NCBI GenBank assembly: GCA_030068145.1 | Contig: JAPJBO010000225.1 | Location: forward strand, 124,001-188,000 | Length of the DNA: 64,000 bases | Direction of reading: 5' to 3' | From: Diplonema papillatum | Lineage: Eukaryota > Euglenozoa > Diplonemea > Diplonemida > Diplonemidae | Part shown: piece by piece, positions 4,801 to 52,892 of the stretch | How positions within the stretch are numbered: position 1 is the stretch's first letter | How the letters are laid out: the number at the start of each line of letters is the position of its first letter | Notes under the pieces: generated by a model | Told to the model about the DNA's origin: nothing | The model's input: the letters and a program-made list of their open reading frames with translations, nothing else | The model's database searches: none | Program-made: the position numbers and the translations under genes

Positions 4801-7800
4801 CAACCCCCGTTCACACAGGAGTGGATGCAGCTCGCGCACGAAGGTGTCGACGCCTCGATGCCCGAAACGCACTTCTACGTACCCGCCCGGGGGCTTCGGA
4901 TGATGCCTTCGGGTGCCTGGGGCTACGAGTACTGCAGGGTGGTCGACTGGAACACCGAGCTGAACACCGTGCGCGTGCTTTGGGGCGCGTCTCCGACGGA
5001 AGCAGGCGACACAGCGTCGTGGCTCCCGCGGGTGCTCGTCGTGTTCCTCGCTGAGGATCCCACTAAGTACGTGCAGAGGCTGGTCCGGGCAATCAGCATC
5101 CGGGAGAAGATGCTGAAGTGGTTGAAGTACCGCCTGTGCTGCGACTCGATGCCGACAGACGAGATGTCGGCGGTCAACACCGAGGTCCTCCAGCGGATCA
5201 CCGACATAGGCACCAGCATCCGGTCCCTGCCGCCGGAAGAGCGGAAGAACATCAAACCCCAGGAAACCGCGCTGATCGAAGAGTTCGTGCTCGAGTGGAG
5301 GCGGACCATGAACAAGGTCAGCCTGGAGCACAAGCTCACGCTGCAGGCGGCAGCCGCCGAAGACACGGACGACCAGCCCGATCCGCTGGATCCGCTCTTC
5401 CAAGGCCTCACCCCCGAGGACATCCGCAACGGTCCCAGCGACATGCCGACCGTCCAACCCCTCGATAGAGTGTCCGCCGTCCCCCCGGGCGCCCGGCAGG
5501 AGTTCGTCGTCGCGAACAAGAAGTTCAACTTCTGCACGTACTTCACGCAGCCCGAAGTTGTCCGCGCCCTGGCCGCTGTCCGAGACGCGTGCCAGCAGGT
5601 TCTGAAGGTCTCCCTCTTCAGCCTGCCCAAGGAGCGGCACATGTCTCTCCAGCACTTCGCGAAGATGCAGCTTGAGTACATCGAAGAGCGTGCGGCGTAC
5701 CTCAAGCACGACTGGAAGGAGAAGCTGCGCTCCAGCATCGTCCAGCACATCACCGGCATCGGGAAAGGCTGGCTCAACCTCGACGAGAAGTCGAAGGACA
5801 TCTACGACGTGTCGAAGCTCAAGAAGTTCCTGACCACGGTCAAGTACATGATGGAGGACACGCTTAACTTCTTGGTCCTGGACTCCATCCGCTCCTTCGC
5901 CGAGTTTATCGAAGACGTTTCGAACTTCAAGGTCGAGGTGAAGGACATGTACACGGTGCAGAACTCGTGGCCTGGGTCGGACGATCCCGCAGCCATACAG
6001 AAAACCCCGCTGTTCACGCTCGAGTTGGTCGAAAAAGACGCGGATTTCACGTACTCGACGCCCATCGACAAGTTCGAGGAGATCATCCTCAACATCTTCG
6101 AAAAGGCCGTGCAGTCGACGCACGACGTGCCGCAGCTCGAGAAGTTCGTGATGACGTGCTACTTCTGGCCGGACGAGAAGGGGCCCTACTGCGGGTCCGT
6201 CCCGCCGAACGACCCCCGCGTCGTGCAGACCCGGCAGCGGGTGGCAAGCGCGATACGGCGGAGCCTCGCTCCGTTGGAGGACTACAAACGGACGTACTTG
6301 AAGTACACGGACGTGATCCGTCTGGACAAAGCGACCTACATCAAGGACTTCCAAGCGCAATGCACAGACCCCGAGATGAAGAACCCCACGGAGGACATGA
6401 CAGCCGAGATCAAGAAGCACGAGCGGAAGAAGAAGGAAGTCCGGAAGGAAATCCCGCACTACATGGAGGTCGGCAACTTCTTCGTCGACTGCACCACGTT
6501 CCGCACCGCGATGGAGAAGAAGCACGACGAGCTCAAGAAGGGGGTCGAAGACCTGATCAAGGACCTCGCCAAGGAAAAAGCCAAGAACATCCGCGAGAGC
6601 TTCACGAAGATCAACGCGACCCTCCAGCGCCCCGCGCAGACGGTCGAGGCCCTGTTCAACACGCGCGGGTTCATCAAAAAGGACATCCCGGAGCTCGTGT
6701 ACCAGCCGCCGGAGGGGATGATCTACAAGATCGAGGACATGAAAATGTACTACATGATCTTGGAGCAGTTCCAGTACCAGCTGAGCGACGAGGACTTCAA
6801 GGGGAAGTGGGAGGCGATGTTCTGGCCGAAGAAGCTCGAGAACCAGGTCGACGCGGTCACCAAGCGGCTCGACGCCGAAGGCGAGAAGCTGCACGACGCG
6901 ATGGTCGTCGAACAGGAGGCCTTCAAGAAGGAGATCGAGAAGGTCGCCCGCGACGTTCAGAAGTTCTCCGCCCAGACCGACCTGCAGGTGAACGTCGCCT
7001 CCCTGGCCGCCGAGGTCAAATCCCTGCAGAAGCGGATCAACGACTCACGCGAGCTCTCCGCCGACTTCAACCGCAAGCAAGAACTCTTCAGCGACGAGGT
7101 GGTCGGGTACCGGCAGATCCTCGAAATCGCGAAGGAGTTCAAACCCTACGCCGACCTCTGGATCACCACCAACGAGTGGCAGAACTGGGTGGAAGGCTGG
7201 CACAAGGACCCGTTCCACTCCCTCGACCCGGAGGAGCTGAAAAAGAGCGTCGATCACGCGGACCGCGTGATGACCTCGCTCCGCAAGACGTTCAAGGACA
7301 AGCCGCAGATCAAGATCGTCGACGAGATCCGGATGCAGCTGTCCGACTTCTCGCCGCTGGTGCCCGTCCTGCAGTCCCTGCGGAACCCTGGGATGAAGGA
7401 CAGGCACTGGTCGGAGCTCGAGAAAAACCTGCCGCACGGCACTTTGGACCCCGAAAACCCTTCGGAGAGCATCCAGACCCTGCAGGACTGCAAAGACCGA
7501 GACCTCGTGTCCCACAAGGACATCATCGTGAAGGTCTGCGAGGTTGCTGCGAAAGAGTACGGCATCGAATCCTCGCTGAACGACATGTACGCGAAGTGGA
7601 AGGACGTTGCCTTCAAGATCGAGGCGTACAAGGAGACGAAGACGTACATGATGAAAGGCGCCGACGACGTGCAAGCGCGTCTCGACGAGGACGTCAACCT
7701 CACGCAGCAGCTTTCGTTCTCCCCGTTCAAGGGGCATTTCGAAGATCAAATCCTGGAGTGGGACCGGTCGCTGACGCTCGTGTCGGAGATCCTCGAGCAG

Positions 7801-9628
7801 TGGCTCGAGTGCCAGAGGAGCTGGCTGTACCTGCAGCCCATCTTCTCGGCGGCGGACATCGCGCTCCAACTGCCCGTTCTGAGCAAGAAATTCGAGAAGG
7901 TGGACCGCACGTGGCGGAAGATCATGGGCCAGGCGTTCCAGAACCCAAACGCGTTGGACTTCTGCACGAAGACCAACAAGCTGCTGGACCAGCTGGTGGA
8001 CGCGAACAAGACGTTGGAAGTCGTGCAGAAGGGCCTCAACGACTACCTCGGGGAAAAGAGGCAACTCTTCGGTCGCTTCTACTTCTTGTCCGACGAAGAA
8101 CTGCTCGAGATCCTGTCCCAGTCGAGGGACCCGAGAACAATCGACGACCACTTGCCGAAGCTGGTCGAGTTCATGGCGAACTTGACGTGGGGGGACGGTC
8201 CGAACGAGATGACCGGCTGGGACTCGGCCGAAAAGGAGCACATCCCGTTCGTCTCCCCGATCCTGCCAGGCGACCGGAACGTCGAGGTGTGGCTCAACGA
8301 GATCGAAACGGGGATGAAGCTCGCCCTGCACGAGCGCATCACCATCGCGAACGCCGCGTACGCCACGACGCAGAGGAGCAAGTGGGTCCTCGAACACCAG
8401 GGGCAGGTCGTCATCGCGGTCGCCCAGATATACTGGACGCTCGAAATCGAAGACGTCCTCAACACAGAGGGCCTCCCGGGGCTCGACCGGTACGCAGCGA
8501 AAACAGAGGAGCAACTACTGGAACTCGTTGACGTTGTGCAGTCTCCGTTGACTCGCATGCAGCGAGTGAACATGGGGGCTGTCATCACGATCGAGGTCCA
8601 TGCGAAGGACACGACCAAGAACATGGTCACGTCGAAGACTTCGGACATCACGGACTTCGACTGGATCAAGCAGCTGAGGTACTACTACGACGTGGAGGAC
8701 GCCCGGTGCAAAATAAAGCAAGTCGACGCCTTGTTTGTGTACGGCGGGGAGTACCTGGGCAACACGATGCGGCTGGTCATCACGCCGCTGACTGATCGCA
8801 TTTACCTCACGCTGACCGGCGCCCTCGCGCTCTGCCTCGGCGGCGCGCCAGCGGGGCCGGCCGGTACCGGGAAGACGGAGACGACGAAGGATTTGGCGAA
8901 AGCGCTGTCGAAGCAGTGCGTCGTGTTCAACTGCCAAGAAGGGTTGGACTTCCGAGCCATGGGCAAGTTCTTCAAAGGCCTCGCGATGACCGGCGCCTGG
9001 GCTTGCTTCGATGAGTTTAACCGGATCGACGTCGAGGTGCTGTCCGTGGTGGCGCAGCAGGTTTTCGTTTCTCTTACTCTATGGCACCATAAAGTCCAGA
9101 AAAACCATGGTGAAGAAAGAAAACCAAAAATACCGTCATTTAAAGGCATGAAAAGACGCTGAAAGTAAATAATGTTGTCGACAACTAAAAGCAAAAGAAT
9201 AAACCAAAACTACGCATTTCTTTCATTCTTATCGAAAACGATCAGGGAAGATTGGATGCTAAACGAGTACGAACACTTTGCAAAACCCCCGAGAAAACAA
9301 CGAATATTCGCCCCTGTGGCACTGGCTCTCCCACGAGTTTCTGCATGTCCAGGCATTAGGGAAGTCGCTTTTCGACTGAGAACATGAAGGGCTGAAATGG
9401 AAAAGGTTTTGTCGATAGCCAGTGGGATATCGGGCAGTCGATCCTGAGTGCCGCCGCAAAAGCTGCCTTCGGAGAAAATTTTGCAACCCGATTGTGACTG
9501 CAGTGCCGCGCTTTAACTGCCAGTAGCCCTGCATGACCTGCTTTTTTCACTGCTGGTGCTCCCCATTACCCTTGTGTCTATACACATATTGCGATATCCA
9601 GCTCCTGAAGCCACAAACAATATATACC

Positions 9629-9672
<44 letters not shown>

Positions 9673-12593
9673 CGACAGGTATCTGACCTGCAAGAGGCGC
9701 TGAAGCGGCAGCAATATCGCATCGAGTTCGAAGGCTCGGAAATTGTCGTCGATCCGACGCACGCGGTGTTCATCACGATGAATCCAGGGTACGCAGGGCG
9801 GACAGAGCTGCCGGACAACTTGAAGGTCCTGTTCCGTCCGGTGGCGTGCATGATCCCAGACTACGCCCTCATCGGCGAGATCAGGCTGTTCTCGTACGGG
9901 TACAAGGACGCGCGCCCGTTGTCGAAAAAGATGGTCCAAACTTTCCAGCTGTCGTCCGAGCAGCTTTCCACGCAGGACCACTACGACTTCGGCATGCGCG
10001 CCGTCAACACTGTCATCACCGCGGCCGGTATAAACAAGCGGGAGGACCCCACAGGTGTGCTAGCTTCGCAGTTGTCTTGATTTGTTTCTAAGTACTGATG
10101 TTGAGCCGGTCCGTCCCTATCTCTTGAAACTGCATCGAAGTGCCTGCCGCTGTTTATCACAGTGAATCACGGTCCACCACGGTCTATCAGGTCCATCCCT
10201 AGTCCCTAAAGCTGCATCGAATTGCCCGGTGCTATATTCTTCGGTCTATCACGGTCTATGGACCGGCTCAGATGTACAGTTTAGTAGCACTCTTGGACAT
10301 GCTACCACTGGGAAACAAACCCATCGAGAGTGTTACACCCTGTGCATGCGAAACACAAACCCCAGCATACTTTCACGGATATCGTTCACTCTGAAAAACC
10401 CCCCACCTCTAAACAACAGGGGAGGAGCGGCTGCTGCTTCTCCGGTCTTTGAGGGACAGCAACGTCCCGAAGTTCTTGCACGCCGACATCGTGCTGTTCG
10501 AGAACATCATTTCGGACCTCTTCCCGGAAGCGCAGCTGCCGGTGCCGAACTACGGGTGCTTGATGGAGGGCATCGGCGAAGCGATCAAGAAGCTCGGCCT
10601 GCAGAGCGTCCCAGAGTTCATCAAGAAGTGCATCCAGCTGTACGAGGTCACCGTCCTCCGGCACGGGCTCATGCTCGTCGGGCCCTCGGGCGGCGGGAAA
10701 ACGTGCAACTACAAAGTGCTGCAACACGCGATGACGTCCATAGCCTCCAGGCGGCATCAAACGGAAGACACCGAGCGGTACTCTAAAGTCAGGACGCACA
10801 TTTGCAACCCGAAGAGCATCACGATGAACCAGCTCTACGGCGCGTACGACGACGCGACGCACGAGTGGAGCGACGGTATTCTCTGCGTTCTCTTCCGGAG
10901 AGCGGCGAAGGAGAAGACCGGCGCGAAGCAGTGGGTCGTGTTTGACGGCCCGGTCGACGCTTTGTGGATCGAGAGCATGAACACCGTCCTTGACGACAAC
11001 AAGAAGCTCTGTCTGGTCTCCGGCGAGATCATCCAAATGTCGCCGTCGATGACGATGTTCTTCGAAGTCGAGGACTTGGCGGTGGCCTCTCCGGCTACAG
11101 TTTCCCGATGCGGGATGATCTACATGGAGCCGTCGTCGTGCACACCAATGACAGACCGTATCCAGTCCTGGGTGGAGCGCTTGCCGAAGATTTACGCGGG
11201 TTCTGCCGCTGTTCTGAAGCAGAAGGCAGTGACGTACTGCATCCCCTGCATCGACTTCATCAGGTGGCGGACCGCGGAGTACGTGCCGACGGTGGACAAC
11301 AACCTGTTAGACTCCGTGTTCCGGATCATGGACGGGTTCTTCGCCATCTTCACCGCCCAGGCCAGCGGGACAGGCGAGCTGCCGGATGACGTGGCGGCGG
11401 CCATGCAAGCTTCGCTGCTGCCGCATTTCTTCCTTTCCGTCATTTGGGCCGTCGGAGCATCGTGCACCGCCGATTCGCGGCCGAAGTTCTCGGAGTTTTT
11501 GTACAACTTGATGCAAGAGAACAACGAGTCCGTGCTCGCCGACATGCTGACGGAGTTTGAAGGGAAGCCAGTATCTCTGTACGACCAGTTCTACGAGTGC
11601 GACGAAGATGCCGGTACTGGTTGGAAGCATTGGCTGCAGACAGTCCCCCCGCCCACGATCGACCCGAAGCTTGGGTTTGCCGACTTAGTAGTGCCGACCA
11701 AGGACACCGTCCGCAACAACTTCTTCTGCAAGCTGATCGTCAAAGCCAACCACCACCTTATCGTCACCGGCCCTACCGGAACGGGGAAAACCACCAATGT
11801 GCAGAACATGCTCATGGGTGAATTACCGGAGAAGTACTCAGGTGCGCATTCGTCTCAGAGGGCTCAGAACTACAGAACGGGGATTTTTTTTCGTCTCACA
11901 ACGAAACCCAGATTTACCTGTGTCCAAGAACAAGTTAGTATTTCCACCCAGTAGAAAAGGACTTCGTGTCCGTTGACGTCAACGCTGAGAGATCCGGTCT
12001 AGCGCGGGTAGGAAAGACGCGCAGGATTGCGCCATGTACTCCTCACCCGAAAGATGAATTTTTTGAGCCAAAAAATCCGGGAACTGGACCGTTTCTGTGC
12101 CAACATGTTTCGTAATCATGATAAGAAGGCGCCGAGTGAAGTGTCGCCGTGACAGAAGGAAGTGCGAAAGTAAGGATGTCTCCACTGCTTCTTTTGACCT
12201 CTTTTGACTTTCATGAAATGTGCCACGCAGGTCTGTTCCTGACGTTCAGCGCGCAGACGCAGGCAAACCAGTGCCAGAACACGCTCATGTCGAAGTTCGA
12301 GAAGAGGAAGAACGGCCTCGAGACAACGACCTGGGGTCCCACAGCCGGCAAGGTATGCAGTGAGTCGAAAGGCCCCTCCCCACGCCCTCCCTCAAACACG
12401 GTCAAACTAGTGCATCACGATGCACCACGCACCCGTGGGCGGCCATAACTGATCAGTAGCTACAATGCAACCACTGCCAGTGGGTGAAGATTTTGATCGT
12501 TGGTGTGTGTGTATTTGACCAACAGGTCCACCCCACGACGCGAAGTCCTCTTCGGTCTGAGTTTGTCCAGAACTTCACTTGATCCCTCTCTCG

Positions 12594-12624
<31 letters not shown>

Positions 12625-15600
12625 AACCTTTTCCTCAACCTCGATCAGATGTTCGTGGTGTTCGTCGATGACGCGAACATGCCGATCAAGGAGCAGTACG
12701 GTGCGCAGCCGCCGATTGAGCTGCTGCGGCAGTTTTTGGACCACGCAGGGTTCTACAACTTCATGCCGCCCATCAAGTACAACGAAGTCATTGACGTCCT
12801 CCTGCTCTGCTCCATGGGCCCGCCGGGCGGCGGCCGGCAGAGCGTCTCGAGCCGGTTCCTGCGGCACTTCAACCACATCGCGTTCACGGAGTTGGACGAC
12901 GACTCGATGATGCTCATCTTCAAGACCATCATGGCCACCCGGTTCGCGTCCGCCGGCATGTCCGCCGACATAGTGACTGCCGTAGAGGCCATCGTCGCGT
13001 CAGCCATCGAAGTCTTCTCGTTCGCGTGCAAAAACTTCCTCCCGACCCCGAACCACGTGCACTACACTTTCAACCTGCGCGACATCTCGAAAGTGTTCAC
13101 TTTGATATACGAAGTCGAACCCAAGGTTATTAAATCGGTCAACGACCTGTATAAGCTTTGGGTCCACGAGAGCATCCGGGTGTACAAGGATCGTCTGATA
13201 TGCGAAGCGGATAGAGGCGTGTTGGAAGGTGAGTTGGACAGAGTGTGCAAGGAGAGATTCGGAGCCGAGGGCGGGCTGAAGGAGTTAGTCACGGCGGAGA
13301 GGCTGGTGTACGGGGATTTCATGGTGCCCGACATCGAGAGCCGCGTGTACGAGGAGGTGACGGACATGCACGCCTTTGTCACCAGCATCTCGCAGTTCTT
13401 GCAGGACTACAACGAGACAGCGGACTCCGTGCGACCGCCGATGCCGCTGGTGATCTTTCTAGACGCCGCGGAGCACGTGTCGCGGATATCGCGTGTCTTG
13501 CACATGCCGAGCGGTCATGCGTTGCTGCTCGGAGTTGGAGGGTCGGGCAGGCGCTCTTTGACAAGACTCGCCGCGTACATTGCAGAGCTCGAAGTGTTTT
13601 CTTTGGAGATCACGAAGTCGTTCACAATGAACGATTGGAAGGACGCACTCCGTCGGTTGATGATGGACGCGGGGATGGAAGACAAGGGTACCGTGTTTTT
13701 GTTCACGGACACGCAGATCGTCAAGCCGCTGTTCATGGAGGACGTTGCATCGCTGCTGGGCACTGCGGACGTGCCGAACTTGTTCGAAGGCGTCGACTTG
13801 GACAACATCTACAACTACTTCCGGTCGATCTGCCAGGCCGAGCGCCTGCCGACGACGAAGCTGTCCATGTACTCCCGCTTCGTGAAGCAAGTCCGGCGCA
13901 ACGTGCATATCGTCCTCGCCTTTTCGCCTCTGGGCGAGGCGTTTCGAACGCGCATGCGCCAGTTCCCGTCGTTGAGCAACTGCTGCACCATCGACTGGTA
14001 CGACCCGTGGCCCGAAGAGGCCCTGTACTCGGTCGCCAACGACACGTTGCTTAAAGCCAACTGTCAAGTCTCTGCCGACCACGAACTTCGGGTGTGCCCA
14101 CTGCTTTTTTTTTGCGTACTAAACCACAAATAAATGCTAAAAAATCGGTAGTTGGCAGCGTACTACGTGAAACTTACCAAAGCAGGTGACTTCTGCTCGT
14201 GCGCACAAACAAAAAAGGGAACGCAAAATTCCCCCACCAAGGAAGACCTGGACTTGACCCAGGTGAAGTGGAAAGACGTCCCCGATCCGGAGGAGCCTAT
14301 CGGACCGAACAAGGCAGTGCCGGGGGAACGATGCGTGTTCTACCCGAATTGGTGTATAAGCACCTGCTTTGTAGGAAATACTTGAGGAGACTGACGAAAT
14401 AGTTGACAACCGATGCGCCGTACCGAAAAAGCAGGACCGACCCGTGATCCAAAAACCGATGAGTGAGAGTGACACGGCCGTACTTCGCTTCACACGCTAC
14501 CCACTACCCACAAGCCATGAACTTAACGCACACACCCACACAGGACACCGTTTTCAGAATGTTCTCGATCCTCCATCAGAGTGCGAAGGACCTCACCGAC
14601 GTGTTCTACGCGGTATGCGGAATACCAATTCTGTCGCCGCTCCCCGCTCTAGTCGACGATTTCCACCCCCTTCTGGGTTAAACCGCGGTCAACGTTCCTT
14701 TTTAGCTGCAACCATTATGCTATCGGAGGAGGCAGTTAGGTGCTGGTTGTCGCATCCTCCTTTTAAACACACAGGAGCGTCGGCGGATCACGTACGTGAC
14801 GCCCACGTCGTACCTGGGGCTGCTCGAGGCGTTCCAGCAGATGCTGGCGGAGCAACGGAAGGAGATCACGCAGAACAAGCAGCGGCTGCAGAACGGGCTG
14901 ACGAAGTTGAAGGTCACCGAGGACCAGGTCAGCGAGCTGCAGGCGACGCTGAAGGCGCGGCAGCCGGAGCTGGTCAAGACGCAGCAGGAGGTCCAGGTGA
15001 TGATGGAGCAGATCTCGATCGACAAGGCCGAAGCGGACGTCGCGCGCGAGGGCGCGAAGTCCGAGGAAACCGCCGCCTCCGAAAAAGCCGCTATCTGCTC
15101 CGGCATCAAGAAGTCGGCTGAGGAGATGCTCGCCGAGGCGCTCCCGGCACTCGACGAAGCGAAGAAGGTGCTGCGGAACCTGAAGGTGCGCGACCTGCAG
15201 GAAGTCGGCAAATACTCGGCCCCGCCCGCCGGCGTCCTGCTGGTGATGCAGGCCGTGCTGACCGTCAAGGGCAGGGGCCCGAACAAGGTGACCAAGGGCG
15301 GCCAAAAAGAGGAGGACTGGTGGGGGCCGTCGCGCGAGGAGCTCCGCGACGCGTCCGGCCTGCACGAGTTCATGCTCGCGTACGAGGCCGAGAAGATGTC
15401 GAAGGCGCTCGTGACCTCCCTCCAGAAGTTCATCGACGACGAGAAGTTCTCCCCCAGCGAGGTGAAGAAAGTGTCGGTCCCGTGCGCCGGCATGAGCCAG
15501 TGGGTCCACGCCATGTACAAATACTACCACGTCAACCTCGAAGTCGAGCCGAAGCGGAAAGAGCTCACCGGAGCCGAAGCAGAGCTGCAGGTAGTCGAAG

Positions 15601-18600
15601 AAGCGCTCGCTGTAACCCGCCAGAAACTCGACGCCGTCGAATCCAAAATAGCCGACTTGCAGGCCAACTTTGACAGCGCAGTCGCCAAGCAGCGGGACCT
15701 CCAAGCCGAAGTCGCGCAGACGGAAGCCCGCTTGGATCGCGCCGCTCGGTTGATCGACGGCCTGTCGGGCGAGAAGGGCCGCTGGGTCGAACTCGTCGCC
15801 ATGTACGAACAGCAGGAGCTGTCGATCCTGGGCGACGTTTTGATCGCGTCCGGCTGCGTCGCGTATCTGGGCCCGTACACCTCGGAATACCGCACCCGGT
15901 ACGTGCAAAAATGGTGCGCGGAACTTGACGCGCACAAGCTTCCCCGTTCTGAAAACTGCAGCCTGATCCGGACCTGCGGAGATCCCGTGGCCATCCAGCA
16001 GTGGGGGATCCAAGGGTTGCCGAGCGACAGTCTGTCGACTGAAAACGCGATCATCCTCAGCAAGACGTCGCGGTGGCCGCTGATGATCGACCCGCAGGGC
16101 CAGGCGAACGCCTGGATCAAGAACATGGAGGGGAAAGGCAACACCGCCTCTGGCGCCCCGCCCTTGGTCGTCTGCAAGGTGACCGACCCGAAGTACGCGC
16201 AGTCGCTGGAAACGGCGATCCGGCTCGGCGCTTCGTGCCTGATGGAGAACCTGGGCGAGGACTTGGACCCGCTGCTGGAGCCCGTCCTCCTCAAGCAAAC
16301 CTACCTGGCCGGCAGCACGGTCATGATGAAGCTCGGGGAAAACGCGATTCCCTACGACGACCGGTTCAAGCTTTTCATGACCACGAAGCTCCCGAACCCG
16401 CACTACACCCCGGAAACCTCTGTGAAGGTTTCGTTGCTAAACTTCTTCATCACCCCCGGCGGCCTCGAAGACCAATTGCTGGGCAAGCTGGTCGGAAAGG
16501 AGAGGAAGGACTTGGAGGACCAGAAGAACAACCTCACCCGGCAGAACGCGGCCATGATGAAAGAACTAAAAGACTTGCAAGCTTTGATCTTGAAGATGCT
16601 GCAGGAGTGCGAGGGCGAAATCTTGGACAATGAGGAGCTCATCGAGACGCTCGAAAAGTCAAAGGTGAAGTCCATCGAGATCAACAAGGCAGTCGAGGAG
16701 GCGAAAGAGACGGAAGTCGTGATCGACGTCACGCGGAACAAGTACCGCCCCGTTGCCTTCCGCGCCGCCATCCTCTTCTTCTGCGTTGCCGCGCTTGCTG
16801 CGGTTGATCCGATGTATCAATACTCTCTGACGTGGTTCATGAACTTGTTCATGAACGCGATCGAAAAAGCGGAGCAAGACTCGGATCTCGAGCAGCGCCT
16901 GACCAACCTGCTCGAGTTCTTCACATTCGGCTTCTACACCAACGTGTGCCGCTCGCTGTTCGAACGACACAAGCTAATGTTCTCGTTCTCCCTGTGCACG
17001 ACGATCATCCGCGAGCAAGGAAACGTCGATGCTTTAGAATATCGATACCTACTCACCGGCACAACGGGTACCGGGGGCAACGCCACGAATCCAGCACCTG
17101 ACTGGATTACCAGTGGCATGTGGCAGGACGTGCAGTTCGTAGCAAGCACGTTGGATGCCTTCGCCGGGTTCGACGCTCACTTCGCGCAGGAGCATGAGTA
17201 TTACAAGTCGGTGTTTGACTCTGCGGACCCGCACTTGGAACCGATGCACGCTGATTTCGAGTCCAAAATGACACCGCTCATGCGGCTGGTCTTCGTGCGC
17301 GTCCTGCGGGCGGACAAGGTCGTCCTTGCCATACAGAAGTTCATCACAACGTATCTCCCGGAAAAGTACATTATCGCACCGACTTTCGACCTCGAGTATG
17401 CACCCCCCCCCCCCCTCCCCTGTGACGAGCTACGAACAGCCGCCTGACAAACCAGACTCACACCGCAGTCCTGTCTGCAGACACTCAGGTTCCACGCTGA
17501 TGATGGTCCGCCTTATGTGTCCGTGGCTTAAAGGACCGAAACACGGCGCAGACGGGACCAGTGCGGTGTTGAGCACATACCCATTCCAAGCACGTTCTTG
17601 CAATCCCCCCCCCCCCCCCCCCGCTAGTCCCTCAAGGTTTCATGCCCTACCTGCGGAGTCTTACACTCCCCGTGACCCCTTTACCCTTTTCCTTTTCCCT
17701 TTTCTACTTTACACTCTCTTCGAAGAAGACTTGATGCTAGCATCAAACATGCAGGAGAGGCAGTGTCCTGCCTAAACATTAATCTAAGTTTTTCCCCCCT
17801 ATCTTATTCGCTTGCCTCACCACCAGTGACAATCAGGGCGGGGGTCCTGAGGTTTTTAACTGATTGCTCAGACACAGTTGTAGGGGCCTCCTCCCCGTGA
17901 CGGATTCGCCTGTGGGTAGCACGGGTGATCCTGGCTGTACCGCTGTCCTGTCTGCAGACACTCAGGTTCCGCGCTGATGATGGTCTGCCTTCGGTGACCG
18001 CGGGACCAGTGTGGTGTTGAGCACATATCCATTCAAAGCACGTTCTTGCAATCCCCCCCTTCCTACTTGCTGTGTCACCCGCCCTCCTTCCACGAATAAT
18101 CCAAACCAAACCAGGTCGTCGTATAAAGACTCCGACGCCGCGACACCCCTCATCTTCGTACTGTCGACCGGTGCAGACCCGATGGACGAGCTACAGAAGT
18201 TCGCGGCAAAAATGCGGATGCAGAACAAGATGCACCCGATATCGCTGGGACAAGGGCAAGGGCCGCGGGCGCAGGCGTTGATGCAAAGCGGGATGGAAAG
18301 AGGCACGTGGGTGGTGCTGCAGAACTGCCACTTGGCCACCAGTTGGATGCCGAAGCTCGAGTCGATCGTCGAGGGGTTCAACCCGGAAACGATGAAGAGG
18401 GAGTTCAGGCTGTGGCTGACGTCAATGCCGTCCAAAACGTTCCCTGTGAGCGTGCTGCAGGTCGGCGTCAAAATGACCAACGAGCCGCCGAAGGGGATCC
18501 GCGCCAACATGACGAGAAGCTACACCGGCTTTACCGACGAGTGGCTCGACAGCAGCTGCAAACCCGAAGAGTTCAAACGCCTCCTCTTTTCCTTGTCGCT

Positions 18601-21600
18601 GTTCCACGCAGTGATTCAGGACAGGCGCGTCTTCGGCTCGCTGGGCTTTAACATCCCCTACGAGTTCAACGACTCCGACTTGAAATGCTGCAATAGGCAG
18701 CTGCATAAGTTCATCGATATGTACGATGAGGTCCCCTTCCCGGTACTGCACTTCCTCACGGGGCAAGTCAACTACGGCGGAAGGGTAACCGACGATTGGG
18801 ACCGGAGATGCTTGATGACGCTGTTGGATGACTACATGACCGCCAAGGTGTTAGAGGAAGGCTATTTCTTCAGTGCGAGCGGGACGTACACAACGCTCGT
18901 AGCGGGGAATAAACAGTACTACTTAGGTTTTCTGGAGACGCGGCCGCTGAACGTAAAGCCCGAGATGTTCGGCCTGCACGAGAACGCAGACATCACCAGC
19001 GCCAGGACGCAGACGTTCTTGCTGCTGGAGCTTTTGCTGTCCCTCGAGACTGGAGCTGCGTCTGTGGGGGGGAAGAGCAGAGAAGAGCTGCTCGGGGAGA
19101 CCGCGGCAGGGATTCTGTCGAGGACGCCGCCTGAATTCGACACGCGGGCATTCTCCGAAAAGTTCCCGGTGCTGTACGAGCAGAGCATGAACACGGTGCT
19201 GGTGCAAGAGGCCGTCCGTTACAACAAACTGCTCAAAGTCACCGCTAAGTCCCTCGCAGACTTCACGCGAGCCCTGCGAGGTGAGGTTGTCATGGCTGCG
19301 GACCTCGAGGAAATGGGCAATTCCATCTTCGCAAACCAGGTATTCAGTCGTCTACACAGTGTACAGAATTACTCCAGACAACCATAACCGTAACTGTAAT
19401 GAGATTCTTTGCGGAGGACCCTTGATGGCACGCTGCAGATCTGCTGGACGCGGTTTGGCCAGTCCGCCTACCGCCTTCTGCCTTTCTTAATCAACAAGGT
19501 GCCTGGCCGGTGCTGGTCTTTTAGATTCGAAGAGTTGTTACTCAGAAAAGCCAGGCGTTTGGGGGAAAGTGGACTCCCATCTGGGTAATGTGTCAGAGAA
19601 CACATTAGTGGGGGGGGCTCCACACAGCGGGCTCCCATTAAAGCGTCAAGCTCAAAATGTAGGTCCGCGGCGAGAAAGTCATACAACTGGTTTTCATGCA
19701 ATCAATTCTCTCAGTACCGTGGGGTCCCGTGCACCCGTACACTTTCGCGTTGTCTGTCCCCACAGTTTTCGATTCGTCACGGACTTCGGGATTCCGAGTG
19801 TCTTGTTTGGGACGAGCGAAAGGAGCCTCCGTTTCATAATGAGAAGCCCAAACAGACGCTTTCACCGGTGAAAGGTAACTGCGTACAATACGGAAGAGTT
19901 GAAAGTGGAACATGCGAGTTTGTCATTGGCGTAATATCAACGACAACTTTCTTGGGTTTGCAATGCATACCCCGCAGAAACTCATCTTGCACGAGCACGG
20001 GTGACAGTGCCAGGACTCCGGCCATTCGCCTCTTGGTCCTCGCAATGCTGCGACTTACCTTTGCTCATGAAGTTCTGCGGAGCTGCAGAGGGAACGTGAG
20101 TGTTCGTGCACACTTAGAGACTGTCGCAAACGCCCCATTCAAATTTAGACTGTCGCAAACGCCCCAATCAATTTTAGATGGTTCACTGAAACGAGAAGAG
20201 TGCAGAGCTCCAGTACGCCAGTTTCCAGCATAACGGAACTGCACTAAATACGTGAACACGGCGGGTGCCACGATGCCCTCCACGTGCGTGCGGTGTCCTC
20301 TTTTCCTGAAAGAAATATAAAATGAAGCAGCGTTAAAAGAAGTGGTGAATCAGGCAACCGGATCTTTTACCTTATCGCACACCATCACTGATAGGTTGGG
20401 GCTAATCCGTTACGTCGCTTGCCAGGCAAGCTTCGACTCTGGAAATGCTTCAGACTTTTTGCACCACTCTTCTCTTGTTGTTACGCTGGCGCACAAAGCG
20501 CCGCCATTCTGCTACCATTCTGAAGTCTTTCTACCACCACCACGCACCGTTCAGGTACCGGCCAAATGGGCCGCGGCAGCGTACCCATCGCTCAAGACGC
20601 TGTCGAACTGGTTCGAAGATCTCTTGCTTCGCGTGAAGTTCATTAGAGTATGCCTGCACACATTTCTCCCATCTCAACCAGTGTGGCAGAGAGTCCGATT
20701 CCCGGAAGTTTACTAGCAACATGCCGCGTCGTCCAGCCGTTTTCAATGCTCGTACTGTTGACCATTTTTAACGAAATAATCAAGTAACTTCAACTCCACA
20801 GTCTGTGAATCACTAGCAACACTTGAAAATGACAAGCATGGGTTTTGACATACCGTAAACGGGAATAAGTTGGATCGGACGAAACGGTCCAACTCACCTG
20901 TTTTGGGCTCTCGCGGTCCAACTTTTTTCGGGAAGTCCTGTGTGCTTGGAGACATTTTGTGACTGGCCACTGAACAGCACTCGCTTCACCTCTGTAGTTT
21001 GGAAGTCGCGCATGAGCCCGCCGCCAGGAGAGTTCTAGACCGCTGTGTCCATCCAGCAACTCGCAACGAAGCACCCTGGCCATGGCCCTGTGGTAGGCAA
21101 TCACAAGCTCTTCCTTGCGTGGAAGGATGTTTGATCGCGACCGTAGTTCGCGATATTTTTCCTGTGGAGTGCGAAACCTTGCCGTGGTGAAGTGCTACAT
21201 CCTGTGCCTTGTTCTTGTCGCGCACTTCTGCTTGGATCGCCAACGCCTGCTTGTTTGTCACCGCACCGTTTCCCTCATGCCCCTCGGCCCAACCCCGCCT
21301 AAGTGGAAACGTGCCTGGGCGGAAATATGTTGGACCGGACAGCTGGTCCAGCTGTTTTGGTCGTCGCGCGGTCCAACTTTTGTCCGGTCCAACGTTTTTC
21401 TGCGCAGGGTCACGTGTGGCCCTATTTACGCTCTTTTTGGGCAAAATCCAAGATCCTATTTATTTACGTTTTTTTCCGCCTGTTTTTGCACCCGTTCTGG
21501 ATCGTAGCTACACTGAGAGAGTGAAAGATTTCGGACGGAGGAATGTCGGACTCTTCGCGCTTTCGCTTTCTTTCTGTCGTCTGTGCTAAGGAGGTTGTAC

Positions 21601-39600: not shown

Positions 39601-42600
39601 ACGTTGCCACCTCGCGGGTGTGAGATTCTGATCCGCGTCGTTTGAGCCTCATCGGATTCTTGATTGCTGGCTGGTCTATATTTCACTCCGCACCCGTTTA
39701 CCCTGACTAACGGGAAAAACTCGAAGTGTCTGTACGAGTGAACGCACACTAACATGAGAGGATGAAGGCACGTATATGCCGCCTGGCCCTGTGCTAGGCG
39801 TAGTTTGAGGTTGTACTTATTTCCGAACAACCTACCACGAGCTTATCCACCCACACCCCCATTTTTCCCCTTTCTTTTTATTTACTTTTTCCCGCCCGAT
39901 GTCGCTGATGACTAACGGACCGTCGGACCCGTCCCAACGGGGGTGCTTATGGAAGCTGCAATGAAGGCTTAGACCGGTACGGGCTACATGGCAACCCCTG
40001 CTCAACATGTAGAACGTGGGGGGCCCTTGATCACATTGGCCCGATCCCTGACAAAGCTCGGCGTCTTTGTATCCTTGTTTGCGGACGATCTTGCAGTGGT
40101 CGTGACGGGAAATTCGGAAGCGGCGGCCAGAGCGGAGGCCCAGAAGGTGCTCGACCTCGTGTCCAAATGGACAGAGGAAAACCGGATGGCGCTCTCCACC
40201 GGCAAGACGGCAGCAATCATCGTCCACCCTCCGAAGGCCCGCCGACGAGCGCTTCAGAAACCCGTCTTCCACACGGAAAGGCAGAGAGTCCGCATGAGGG
40301 TCGAGAGGATTCTGAAAGTGGTAGGACCTACCGGGCTCTGCAGCGAGACCCCGGAAGAGGCATCGGCCGACAGCCAGAACCTGAAAGGGTGGTATCTGCG
40401 AGAAGTGGACGGAGAGCCGTTTTCGCAGGCGAAGCTTAAGAAGCAGAAAAGCATCGCGTTCAAGACGGCGACGTTCGCAATGCCTCTGAAGTTCGTGAAG
40501 TCGCACCCCCTACTCGGGATCACCCTGGACGACAGCTGGCAGTTTGTGGCGCAGGCGGAAAAGGCGAAGAAGAGATTCCGAATACGCGCGCTGCTCCTGC
40601 ACAAGCTGGCGAACACGGCGTGGGGGAACACGTACGGTGTACTCAGGCAAGCATACCAGACCTACGTACAGCCGGCGTGGACGTATGGAGTGGGAGTCTG
40701 GGGCCTGAGCGTCCCCCGGCAGACGGGGAAAGACCTGGAAGCGCTGCACTACAAGGCAGCGAAGTACGTCATTGGGTGTCCCCTGAGCGCGAAGAGAGAG
40801 GCGGTTTATGCCGAGGCTGGACTCCAGCCATTCGCGACTCTGGCGGCCTACGAAGCGACGCGGGTTCGACAGCTCCTGCTACGCTCGGCTCGAGCTCCCT
40901 CCGACAGGCTCGCCGGGACCTCAAACAGGTGGCAAAAGGAGACGGACAAGGTGGCCGCAACAACAGGACTCGCGAAAGCGAAAATCGTACGGACACAGTG
41001 CACGAACTCCTTCGCACCGTGGGAAGCGCCTCCGACGATACACATTGGATGCAAGCTGGACGGCGGGTTCAAGAAGAGCGGCGATGCTGCGAGAAATCGC
41101 CGAGCGGCAGAGGAGAAGATCGGCAGGCTCCCTCCCGCCGACGTAACCATTTGTACGGATGGCTCCCTGACTACCCCTGCCGACGGCCTCCCACAGGGCT
41201 CGTACGGCATAGTGGTAGAGACCAAGGAAGGTCTCACGACGCTCGCGAAGAACATCGGTCTTTGCCACTCGAGCTTCCTCGCCGAGCTGAGAGCGATCGT
41301 CGTGGCACTCATGGAGGCCTGCTCGTGGGCTCCCGGCGACAGGCGGGTTCTACTGGTACTCACCGACTCGCAGTCCGCTCTCGCCGCGCTCAAAGATCAT
41401 CAGCGAAACGGCGTCCTTGAGAGACTTGCGTGGCGGGCCCTCAAAATCCTCGCGACACGGTGGCAGGTGTATCTCCAATACGTGCCCAGCCACTGCGGGA
41501 TCCCAGGCAACGAGCGCGCCGACGAGGAAGCGACGAAGGCGCACGGCCTCCCCGCAGCAAAACCCGTGATCGACTACGACATGGTCAAGGCGATCGTGAA
41601 GAAGGGGAGAAAGGAGTACCGCTGTCAGAAGCTGAAAGCCCACCCGTACCACCTCCTGTCGCCGGGTCCGAAACCTTCAGTCGACAAACGCTGGAGCCGG
41701 CAGGAACAGGCCGCCATCTCGGCGCTGAGGGTGGGTGCGTCCCCAATGGTGTACGGCTTCGCCCAGACTGGAGGAAACTCCCCCCTGGCCGGCACATACG
41801 TCCGGGGACGCACGGCAAGGACGCACGACGGCCTCTGCAGCGAGTGCGGAGCGAAGTACTCGCTCGCGCATGCTATCGAAGGGTGCCCCACAGCCACGGC
41901 CTACTGGGACCTGGCCGGGTTAGCACCAGAGGACCGAACGACACGACATGTCGTCGGAAAGAACCCGCACCTGGCGCTGGGATACTTTGCCAGCCGAGGG
42001 CTGGTACCTCAGGAGTTCGCGGACGCGGTCTTGTCGAGCCGCCGAGACGACGCAATGGCTGAAGGGGGGTCAGGGTAGCGCCTTCCCGGTAGAGCGCCCG
42101 ACTCCGAAGGCGAGCCGCGCCAGAGAAGCCGAAGCGAAGCTCCCGCCGCCCGCCAAGACGAACCAAGAATTTCTGTTTTTTTTTTTTTTTTCTTTCGTCT
42201 TTCAATCTCCTCCTTGCGATTCTATCTCCCAAATGCCCCCACAACGGCACCGGGTCTCTTCCGCCCCACCACCCAGGAGGTGAGGGCCCAGACCAACACC
42301 AGATGTATGTACGGCATGCTTGAAAGTGCACGAACAAAAAAAAAGAAGGGACGACGCCAAGGAAACAGGAGAAAAAAAAAAAAGACACGGAGGGCGCAGC
42401 ACGACCCAAGCATGCAGAGACATAAGAGACTAATGGGCCTAATTGACTTCCCCCCTTCATCCCCTCCTCGCCCCCGTCCCCGCAACCCATTCTTTTCTTA
42501 TTGTTGATTTTATTACTTTTAACATCATAAATATCACAAGACTGACGCTCTCGGGGGCACCACAACAATCTCAGCATGATGAGAGGAAAAGCAGTGTCAA

Positions 42601-49388: not shown

Positions 49389-50081
49389 GACTGCTTCTCG
49401 TCTCTATCCGGACGTACCAAACAGCGAACAGCCGGAACCCTGTTCATTTTGTGCAACCTTCCTCGCGCGCTTCAGGGTGCGCAGTACCGTGTTATGGCCT
49501 CACGACTGCACGACTGAGCTCCCCCTCGTCTCGAATCGAGGAAGTCATTTTTTGGCACCCACGGCCCTCCCAAGCGAGACATATTATGCTGGTTCGGGGC
49601 TGCAAGTTTGGCAGCTCGCTTGTCGTGTGTTTGCACCGGCGTACCCGTAGATCCTATTAACATAAGAGCGGAAAACAAAACAAGAACACAAATTCGGAAA
49701 CGAAATCGAACCAATTTGACTTCATTCACCCCTTCTCGTAAAATAGTCTCCAATCTCTGCCCCTCCAGTTCGCTGCTGCTGCTACGCAGCCAAAAAGAGG
49801 AAAAAGACGGTGTCTGAAAGCAATGCTTTTTCTTCTTCCGCTCCTCGCAGCGACGTGGCTTGGCTCTGCCTTCTCCATTCGTTCGCCTATTGCCTGTCTG
49901 CATTATGGCATGAACGACACACGAAAAAACTCTGCTTCGATGAGGCGTCTGCACTGCGCGCAGTCTGAAAAATCTGCAATCCAGCTACGAAGCACTCCTC
50001 GTTCTTGCTGAACATTTGCTATGGAAACACTGCTGCCGGAATTTGTAAAAATGACGTCCGTTTGACAACGAACCAAGTGCT
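49389..50081. other. Intergenic region between dynein and the BLUF gene
   Basis: Should hold the dynein 3' UTR and the promoter and 5' UTR of the next gene. Open frames continue past the dynein stop but look random. No TATA box or clear polyadenylation signal stands out. Confidence 0.5.
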
Positions 50082-52892
50082 ATGAGCAGGACGTTGAGGA
50101 GGGTGCAGAAAGAACAAGCGAACTTTAACTCTAAAAACGATGCGCCGATGTCGGTACCGTCGCCGCCGGACATCAACCTCGTGGGGGGCCCTCCCCCGAA
50201 GGTGCGACCTTCCCGCCGCGACAATGAGAAAGAGAAGCCTAAGTCGAAGCGGCACCGGTGGCTGCGCCCGGAAGACTTTCTCATCACCGCGTCCATCGTC
50301 GTAGCAGTCCGCTCGTATCTGGAGCACACCCTCGGGGCCTTCGAAAGGGATGGGCGGATGTCGGTGCAGCAGCAGGAGCTGGAAGAACGTGCCATATTCG
50401 ACAACATGCACCGGCGCCGCGCAGCGCGAGCGGCTTCGTACGCGGACGGGGTTCCTGAGCTGAAACCGAGAGGTGATTGCCCAGAGATCAGGTTCCAGGG
50501 GGAGCCGGCACCGCCGCCGCCCGACCCAGAGGCCGACCGCCGCCCCAACGGCAAGAAGAGCAAGCTCGAATCGCACCTCCTCTGTACCGCCAATAAGGGC
50601 AAGTTCCTTTCCGCGGTCGCCCGCGTCGTCAAGAACCAGGAGCGGGGGACCCATGCCGCCGCCACGGCCGCTGCCACGGCCGCCGCCACGCTGCGACCCA
50701 TCGCTCAGCTCATGTACTGCTCTACGCAGGCCGTCGGGGTCACTGACACCGACGTGAAGTCCCTTGTAGCCTACTCTGCGAAGAACGAGGGGCTGAGCAT
50801 TTCCGGGAACTTGCTCTACAACCCCCCTTTTCTCTTCCAAACACTTGAGGGCCCGCCGGAGGCTGTGCGCGGGGTCTTCCGTGGCATCTGGCGGGACTCC
50901 AGACACCACAGCGTCACGATTCTGCGGGCAAAGATGATCCGGGGCCGGGGTGCCCCCGTCGGCCTGCGCCTGACACTGACCCACCAGTACCAAAGACTGC
51001 GCGACGGTGCCCTCGCGTCCGTTTTCGAAGCTTTCGGGCAGGTTTTCGGCGCGAAAACCGCGCTCTGCGGCCGGCCGCCGCCTCATGAATTTGGGGGGGC
51101 ACCGGGGGCCATGAGCCAGAACGCCGACGTATACCCCTTGGAGCAGCAGCAGCGGAAAAAGCTGATGCAACAAGTGGCCGGGGGAGAGTCGTCGTTCGAG
51201 GCACATGTCCTTGCACTCGCGTTCACCGCAGGCGCGGAAGACTTTGGCATGGTCTCCGACACGGTAGTCAAGCAGGTGAACCGGCTAGGAGGATGCCTTT
51301 GCTCTCTGTCGGTCAACCGTGTGGTCGCCTTATTCTCCCCTGCAACTGGGAACGCGGTTACCGCAGGAACTTCTGTCGCCAAAATGGTGAGGCGGTTCCT
51401 CGGCAACTGCCGTTTCGCAGCCGCAAAGGGAACGGTTCTCTGTGCAGGATCCACACCTCCCTTTTACTTTATCGGCCCCGGAATAGACCGGGCGTTGGCC
51501 TTGGCTTCCATCGCATGTACATGGAGCAGCAACGGGACGAGCGGCGTTGCCGCCATCGATGAAACGCTTTCGTACCTTATCAAAGGCCGGAACTTTCTTG
51601 ACGTCGTTTGGCAGGACCCAACAACCTCCGATCCACATGGCTTCTCACCAAGTTACTTCATCCTTCAAGAGCGGTTTCCGGTGGACCAAGTGTCATATAC
51701 CGCGTGTCTTCCACCTTCGTCTGAACTCGTATCTGACGAGGAGCCGTTCGATCCGGTTTCCACCACCGATTTAGTGCGCTTGACGTACGTTTCCATTCTT
51801 AGAGACCCACAGTTCCCCGCGCGGCTCCCGGACTTGATGGTTCCGGGTGGCGGCTTTCCCGGCACGGGAGAGCAGATCATCACTGAGTCGCTGCCGATTT
51901 CCGCGTCCGCTGGGCCGGAGAATACTGCTGCGGTAGACGGGCTTCCTCGCGCCCCCCTTTCCAGCAAAATAACTCTAGTTCAGACCGGGAACGGCCAGGT
52001 CCTCCTACACAGCCTCGAAGGTGTGTACGATGACCTGATCGGCGTGTTCGCTCAGATCACCAAGGCGGCCGGCCACTCCCACTGTTTCCTGGTGCGGGTG
52101 GCTCGCATAGAAGAGCACACGTTCCCCCTTCTTACGCCCACAGCACCAAACGAACCGCAAGTCGTTGCCGGTGATGCGTGGGGGTCGCTCCTCCGGGTGT
52201 TGGTCAAACTCGCGAGGGCTTTTGAACACCGCCTCCCTTCTCTGATAAAAATGCTCGCCGCAGCTCAGAAAAGCCCGTTGTCTATCGGGCTCCTGCCTTT
52301 GCCTCAGCGCGTGTATGCGGTCATAAAACCTGTGTCCAAGACCACGATGGCATCCGCTGAGCGAGCGCACGACCTGCTGATCCGGTGTGTCGTTTCGCAG
52401 TTGTGGCTTGACTTAGTGGAGGTGGCGCAGGGGGTCGTGGTGTCCTGCCGTTTGGAGCGCGCGCATTGTTTGGTTGCTCTGTGCATCCAGCTGTGTCGTC
52501 ATGTCGCGTGCACTGCGCGAAAATGCTGGCTTTCCATTGGTGCGTCCGTCGGTGGGGCAACCGCTGGTGTGCTCGGGAGGGATCATCCGTCTTTCTTCAT
52601 AACCGGCCCCGGTATCCTACATGCGTCTGATCTTGCCATGCAGGTTGCTGCAAAACCGAATGCGTTCGGTTCTTGTATGCTTGTTTGTCCCGCTGTTTTC
52701 CGGACCATCAGGTACACGAGCCCGCTTGACCCGTTGGTCGGCATTGGGAGCAACTGCCTCCGGCGGCTTTCCGCCTGGGACGTGTATGCCGTTTGCCATG
52801 AGTGGACCGATGCACCGACGAGATCGAAATGCGATCCTTTTCGGCTTTGCCACCGACCGCTCGTCCAGCGGGTGCCGTCAATCATGAAGTAG
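50082..52892 (+). CDS. Tandem BLUF / cyclase-like protein (photoactivated-adenylyl-cyclase architecture)
   Basis: A 936-residue intronless ORF. BLUF1 (about 205-300) has LMYCS, AKNEGLSISGNLLY, FLFQTLEG and RDSRHHSVTIL. Tyr212, Asn235 and Gln253 match the flavin-contacting Tyr, Asn and Gln by motif and spacing, so FAD binding and a blue-light response are plausible; the late Trp/Met is not evident. Cyclase-like 1 (about 370-505) has the class III fold signature (VVALF, FYFIGPGIDRALALASIA) but lacks the metal Asp residues. BLUF-like 2 (about 564-665) has LVRLTYVS but HSLEG instead of QxLEG, plus an insert of about 30 residues. Cyclase-like 2 (about 740-880) has LSIGASVGGATAGVLG and FFITGPGILHASDLA, again without catalytic residues. 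This F1-C1-F2-C2 order is that of Euglena PAC. I infer a photoreceptor or regulatory subunit. ATG 50082 is the first in frame; a basic, disordered N-terminus of about 200 residues precedes BLUF1. Confidence 0.8.
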   Translation: MSRTLRRVQKEQANFNSKNDAPMSVPSPPDINLVGGPPPKVRPSRRDNEKEKPKSKRHRWLRPEDFLITASIVVAVRSYLEHTLGAFERDGRMSVQQQELEERAIFDNMHRRRAARAASYADGVPELKPRGDCPEIRFQGEPAPPPPDPEADRRPNGKKSKLESHLLCTANKGKFLSAVARVVKNQERGTHAAATAAATAAATLRPIAQLMYCSTQAVGVTDTDVKSLVAYSAKNEGLSISGNLLYNPPFLFQTLEGPPEAVRGVFRGIWRDSRHHSVTILRAKMIRGRGAPVGLRLTLTHQYQRLRDGALASVFEAFGQVFGAKTALCGRPPPHEFGGAPGAMSQNADVYPLEQQQRKKLMQQVAGGESSFEAHVLALAFTAGAEDFGMVSDTVVKQVNRLGGCLCSLSVNRVVALFSPATGNAVTAGTSVAKMVRRFLGNCRFAAAKGTVLCAGSTPPFYFIGPGIDRALALASIACTWSSNGTSGVAAIDETLSYLIKGRNFLDVVWQDPTTSDPHGFSPSYFILQERFPVDQVSYTACLPPSSELVSDEEPFDPVSTTDLVRLTYVSILRDPQFPARLPDLMVPGGGFPGTGEQIITESLPISASAGPENTAAVDGLPRAPLSSKITLVQTGNGQVLLHSLEGVYDDLIGVFAQITKAAGHSHCFLVRVARIEEHTFPLLTPTAPNEPQVVAGDAWGSLLRVLVKLARAFEHRLPSLIKMLAAAQKSPLSIGLLPLPQRVYAVIKPVSKTTMASAERAHDLLIRCVVSQLWLDLVEVAQGVVVSCRLERAHCLVALCIQLCRHVACTARKCWLSIGASVGGATAGVLGRDHPSFFITGPGILHASDLAMQVAAKPNAFGSCMLVCPAVFRTIRYTSPLDPLVGIGSNCLRRLSAWDVYAVCHEWTDAPTRSKCDPFRLCHRPLVQRVPSIMK

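Follow-up and report, generated by a model that had tools for sequence, protein, structure and literature searches.

In a stretch of diplonemid DNA we find a gene, P0001, that we read as a strongly diverged relative of the photoactivated cyclases (PACs), one in which a BLUF switch would act through non-catalytic pseudocyclases; we give this reading about as much belief as doubt. Its first module is a BLUF domain (F1) that carries the Tyr/Asn/Gln triad of the photocycle. Behind F1, sequence profiles and predicted models make the four-part order F1-C1-F2-C2 plausible, with C1, F2 and C2 as decayed modules that are weakly supported one by one.

Results

Locus and host

The window, by which we mean the whole stretch of 64,000 nucleotides that was analysed, contains an uninterrupted single-exon open reading frame of 936 amino acids whose first start codon is the ATG at 50082. 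When the host's own genome was searched with P0001, one full copy and one partial copy of 61 residues were found. The features of the locus are as follows.

49826..49850, + strand: polypyrimidine tract with AG ahead of the P0001 ATG, candidate spliced-leader acceptor, identified by eye
50082..52892, + strand: open reading frame P0001, single exon, from ORF reading and own-genome search
50082..50666, + strand: N-terminal extension (residues 1-195) without a convincing family match
50703..50948, + strand: BLUF1 (F1), residues 208-289, Pfam BLUF match; Tyr212 (50715), Asn235 (50784) and Gln253 (50838) kept; beta-5 Trp/Met replaced by Val/Leu
51195..51581, + strand: putative pseudocyclase 1 (C1), residues ~372-500, metal Asp and transition-state Asn/Arg not kept
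51768..52130, + strand: putative degenerate BLUF2 (F2), residues ~563-683, His643 in place of Gln, low-confidence insertion where the first helix would be
52329..52796, + strand: putative pseudocyclase 2 (C2), residues ~750-905, catalytic residues not kept

The start of the gene (window 50020-50240) has an exact copy of 221 bases with sharp ends on another contig (L010 6889-7109, G000:C364), which is either a recent insertion or an assembly artefact. Upstream of P0001, several separate open frames, with introns not modelled, belong to a dynein heavy chain of the axonemal type (window 4792-19387, + strand), in agreement with the sequence-only reading, which had spoken of a protist with axonemal dynein. 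Against the PDB, one large exon of this gene gave 1394 and 1332 bits for two chains annotated 'Dynein heavy chain, putative', which may be kinetoplastid to judge by their names, and 985 bits for the best chain named 'Dynein axonemal heavy chain 1'. Between the dynein gene and P0001, an open frame at window 39988-42078 (+ strand) matches RNase H and, weakly, reverse transcriptase, and by its sequence is probably a piece of a retroelement.

The genome that we searched (G000) comprises 271,365,524 bp in 2910 contigs. The core of the kinetoplastid/diplonemid spliced leader, searched as a pattern, has 628 copies in it and its reversed control none, and all six of the loci read (L092-L097) carry the same 37-base exon, CCAACGATTTAAAAGCTA plus the core. 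The exon is scattered over many contigs, and the sequence downstream of it is of several kinds in the six loci, which may represent leader RNA genes together with reinserted mRNAs. No match to the light-harvesting family was found in the genome (the control was positive in 1 of 14 genomes). The genome paper of Diplonema papillatum (PMC10161547) describes an assembly of 280,293,864 bp in 6181 contigs, and also spliced leaders and genes clustered in a single orientation. The host is a diplonemid and not an alga, most likely Diplonema papillatum, although another diplonemid would also fit. A brown alga had been considered on account of G+C, introns and flagellar flavin receptors; a search for EsV-1-7 gave no match, with no positive control, and this host was rejected on the evidence of the spliced leader. 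An exact 27-base pattern for 18S rRNA had no match either, a result that carries no weight.

The first BLUF domain

F1 is a BLUF domain with the complete triad. It matches Pfam BLUF (PF04940, gathering cut-off 25 bits) over residues 208-289 with an E of 1.4e-18 and 67.2 bits (60-67 bits across runs), and it scores 43.8 bits with the BLUF part of an HMM built from bacterial PACs, where the best of 500 shuffles reached 4.3. For this HMM, as for the counts given below, 80 of 266 relatives were kept, 45 of which were taken to be BLUF-cyclases by match length; one of 254 aa (L017) was left out, leaving 44. The PDB sequences nearest to P0001 are the BLUF domains Slr1694 (E 1.7e-6) and AppA (E 3.4e-6). 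The predicted model has the BLUF order of strands and helices, with a block pLDDT of 65-82 over most of F1. The sequence-only reading had called for a Pfam hit within residues 205-300 and a ferredoxin-like fold, and had named Tyr212, Asn235 and Gln253 with an Asn-to-Gln spacing of 18; the profile match, the ferredoxin-like model and the alignment bear this out.

The beta-5 Trp/Met pair, present in all 44 bacterial PAC rows, is Val/Leu in F1 and Ser/Leu in P0002, a second BLUF protein of the host. Functional BLUF domains vary at these positions. The fact that Tyr, Asn and Gln have been kept in both F1 and P0002 while their surroundings changed greatly suggests, at the level of sequence, selection on the flavin switch.

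Probable decay of the remaining modules

The sequence-only reading had described a BLUF-cyclase-BLUF-cyclase protein. Its open reading frame and BLUF1 stand, whereas C1, F2 and C2 are better described as weakly supported, decayed remnants than as full domains. No Pfam cyclase model matched C1 or C2 when P0001 and its parts were searched, so that the guanylate cyclase profile proposed as a check gave no support. Each of the two regions is picked up by a profile that misses the other. C1 scored 1.4 bits with an HMM of PAC cyclases (2 of 500 shuffles as high), and by hhalign it reached a score of 23.1 that none of 30 shuffles equalled, at a probability of 4.3% (94.3% for the positive control, P0002). 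An HMM built on the host's cyclases missed it (its score was reached by 69 of 500 shuffles) and also missed the P0002 control (128/500); with an HMM in which host cyclases are mixed with bacterial PACs, no shuffle in 500 was as high as that control. Searched alone against the PDB, C1 had no match up to E 10. C2, for its part, scored 2.9 bits with an HMM of 20 host cyclases (0/500 shuffles as high) and 1.7 bits with the mixed HMM (1/500). The PAC-cyclase HMM did not report it, its hhalign score was equalled by 28 of 30 shuffles, and its single PDB match, at E=2, was a rhodopsin-guanylyl cyclase fusion. Comparison of C1 and C2 with the cyclase of P0002 was not significant (225 and 123 of 500 shuffles, respectively). 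We do not claim C1 and C2 as an internal repeat, since 22 of 500 shuffles aligned as well.

F2 alone reached 15 bits with Pfam BLUF (E 0.027), under the cut-off of 25, and 2.4 bits with the PAC-BLUF HMM (1/500 shuffles as high), while hhalign aligned 6 columns (1 of 30 shuffles as good). The second half of F2 aligned to F1 with a score of 44, which was reached by none of 500 shuffles. In the alignment the photocycle Gln is His643. In the model, pLDDT is 78-89 in the blocks that hold the other strands and helix, and a low-confidence insertion stands in place of the first helix. In known BLUF domains the flavin adjoins this helix, and thus, judging from the model, F2 probably does not bind flavin.

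F1 is strong and C1, F2 and C2 are weak, yet for each of these three one test or more goes beyond shuffles, and the four positions are in order, so that the evidence leans towards the order of a Euglena-type PAC. The two AlphaFold models of P0001, F1-C1 and F2-C2, have a mean pLDDT of 61.6 and 54.7. In the former, the core of C1 shows a cyclase-like order (block pLDDT 63-83) and is joined to F1 by a low-confidence linker. When this model was searched with Foldseek, ranks 1-23 were structures of OaPAC or bPAC (best E 2.7e-15), with a whole-chain TM score of just 0.33-0.38, and BLUF domains and class III cyclases followed among the best 50 of 1643 matches. This fit to the PAC fold is partly built in, because the models rest on 28-row alignments in which 26 rows are bacterial PACs, taken from 43 listed rows.

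Aligned to PACs, both C1 and C2 are without the two metal Asp and without the transition-state Asn and Arg; in C2, the second metal position falls into an alignment gap. The C1 model has Thr382 right after its first strand (372-381) and Val-Asn-Arg at the hairpin tip (410-412), so that neither place holds an Asp. Given the loss of these residues and the missing Pfam match, P0001 should not be a light-activated cyclase. A working photoactivated cyclase, with catalytic residues that align elsewhere, would be in keeping with the probable module order, that of PAC, and with the uncertain register of C1 and C2. Nevertheless, it has to face all of these losses, and the Gly-Asp pair of residues 697-698 is situated ahead of the C2 linker, outside the hairpin; we consider such an enzyme very improbable. 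The label 'BLUF-cyclase' used by the sequence-only reading thus fits the order of a Euglena-type PAC but is misleading for function, because the catalytic residues are missing from both cyclases and F2 is without the Gln and the first helix, losses that this reading had not noticed.

Other BLUF proteins and cyclases of the genome

Pfam BLUF was found at three places in the genome: P0001, P0002 (L003) and P0003 (L005). P0002 consists of a coiled-coil start (recognised by eye), a BLUF domain (E 1.6e-21), a PAC-type linker that contains NPL, and a cyclase domain. By phmmer, its residues 106-310 match OaPAC (E 1e-21) and residues 106-306 match bPAC (E 4e-21), a span that runs from BLUF across the linker into the cyclase, of which it includes the first half. 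Its BLUF keeps Tyr, Asn and Gln, but with an Asn-Gln spacing of 20 instead of 18, and in the alignment to PACs its cyclase has lost both metal Asp. After a predicted splice there is an EF-hand motif (24.9 bits, cut-off 25; E 1.3e-5); a second candidate exon had no family match. P0003 has a BLUF domain (E 1.5e-9) with Val at the Tyr position. A genome search with P0002 returned itself and, at E 0.029, F1 of P0001, and nothing else. Since P0002 aligns with bacterial PACs across the linker and both domains, at least this one host gene looks, from its sequence, like the descendant of a ready-made BLUF-cyclase.

Class III cyclases are abundant in the host, with at least 146 places matching Pfam Guanylate_cyc, a lower bound as 150 of 166 candidates were scored. 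The metal Asp pair is kept in 18 of the 20 best of these matches (L100-L119). Among the places listed, none lies on the contig of P0001 (C225) or on that of P0002 (C10). Several matches on contig C21 have equal scores and regular spacing, and one match lies inside an open frame of 3886 aa (L118).

Discussion

Is P0001 a relative of Euglena PAC, or did a BLUF domain and a cyclase meet a second time? In Euglena, PAC serves as the light receptor of the flagellum, with the domain order F1-C1-F2-C2. According to PMC2781859, each subunit has two BLUF and two cyclase domains. P0001 resembles Euglena PAC alpha/beta in the probable presence of this order within one chain, in the BLUF1 triad and in its euglenozoan host, and differs in its cyclases without catalytic residues, in the degenerate F2, in a long N-terminal extension and in a host without a light-harvesting match. 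OaPAC and bPAC are active enzymes with one BLUF and one cyclase each. They provide the best structure matches of the F1-C1 model and the best sequence matches of P0002; P0001, unlike them, is tandem and, as its sequence indicates, catalytically dead.

The sequence-only reading had left open a distant PAC relative or an independent assembly. In the latter case, BLUF and cyclase would have been fused within the diplonemid lineage and the likeness to Euglena PAC would be convergence, which the weak sequence support for C1, F2 and C2 allows. Within the inspected part of the BLUF tree, F1 and the BLUF of P0002 do fall among non-PAC BLUFs, apart from the bacterial PACs, as an independent assembly would predict. 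However, they do so on very long branches (2.6 to 9.9 changes per column for the three host proteins), and for this reason we make no use of the tree places of the host BLUFs. Because of these branches, and as the trees hold no Euglena PAC sequence, gene trees cannot prove common descent with Euglena PAC. The alignment of P0002 with bacterial PACs over linker and both domains argues against assembly within the host, and so does the place of the host in Euglenozoa, a group where PAC is known. We consider an independent assembly unlikely. With a host that is euglenozoan like the euglenids, common descent is favoured, and the F1-C1-F2-C2 order is best read as that of a decayed PAC relative.

For the distribution of PAC, BLUF domains have been reported from Acrasis kona (PMC11589745). 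A 2009 statement (PMC2781859) places PAC in phototrophic euglenoids and kinetoplastid trypanosomes and describes it as absent from eukaryotes outside Euglenozoa. A diplonemid PAC relative fits the picture that this paper gives of PAC in Euglenozoa. The statement is dated, and covers neither the BLUF cyclase of Naegleria named by the sequence-only reading nor the BLUF domains of Acrasis kona. Among the open-access journal papers searched by their main text, no listed title concerns a diplonemid BLUF protein, and 'diplonemid' and 'BLUF' occur together solely in the Euglena genome paper. In its main text, the Diplonema genome paper (PMC10161547) uses neither the word 'cyclase' nor 'photoreceptor'.

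Loss of catalytic residues next to a kept BLUF is found in bacteria as well. In 18 of the 44 PAC relatives, from methanotrophs, Nitrosomonas and proteobacteria (L032-L037, L040-L050, L052), both metal Asp are lost and the BLUF Tyr, Asn and Gln are kept. These pseudo-PACs form one clade (99/99) with one partly changed row inside, and P0002, which alone represents the host in that tree, falls outside it on a very long branch. Like F1-C1 of P0001 they combine the triad with loss of both metal Asp, but they are single BLUF-cyclase units, far less diverged, and they retain the BLUF Trp/Met. The existence of this clade suggests, by sequence comparison, that the same loss occurred elsewhere too.

On our reading of P0001, F1 would still bind flavin and switch in blue light, and the switch would be passed to C1 and C2, which would have a cyclase fold, make no cAMP and serve as pairing or regulatory modules. 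Class III cyclases work as dimers, and a non-catalytic cyclase fold could therefore still pair; C1 and C2 might dimerise with the intact class III cyclases of the cell. P0002, with its coiled coil, BLUF, pseudocyclase and EF-hand, could be a second, Ca2+-linked version. Alternatively, P0001 may be a light-blind scaffold, a PAC descendant whose BLUF no longer senses light and which has a structural role, for instance within the flagellum. The beta-5 changes in F1 and P0002, the losses in F2, the missing Tyr of P0003 and the host without a light-harvesting match would all agree with this, and we regard it as quite possible, though we would not expect it. What speaks against a blind protein is that Tyr, Asn and Gln have been kept in F1 and P0002 amid great change, a point that the spacing of 20 weakens for P0002. 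Weighing these arguments, we favour with moderate confidence a light switch with regulatory pseudocyclase output.

If P0001 is indeed a PAC relative, heterotrophic Euglenozoa would also have a BLUF-cyclase, and the inactive C1 and C2 would be an example of a BLUF domain that retains its switch while the enzyme behind it degenerates into a non-catalytic module. Do diplonemids sense blue light, and is PAC older than euglenid photosynthesis? As a tentative and rather doubtful generalisation, diplonemids, which are colourless flagellates of the sea, might keep a family of BLUF-pseudocyclase photoreceptors, of tandem and EF-hand types, that read blue light without making cAMP themselves and control other class III cyclases through pairing; such a family would form a branch of PAC that is no longer enzymatic, and the same change would have happened independently in methanotrophs and Nitrosomonas.

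Mobile elements were also searched. Phage records gave no match to P0001 and viral contigs held no relative of it. One viral contig (IMGVR_UViG_3300037963_002018; L091 168-407) matches the linker and cyclase part of PACs weakly (24%, E 1e-6). Matches were found in 46 plasmid records with the whole of P0001 and in 221 with F1; in those listed (20 and 30 rows) F1 alone was matched, and most of the proteins carry the name diguanylate phosphodiesterase or BLUF protein.
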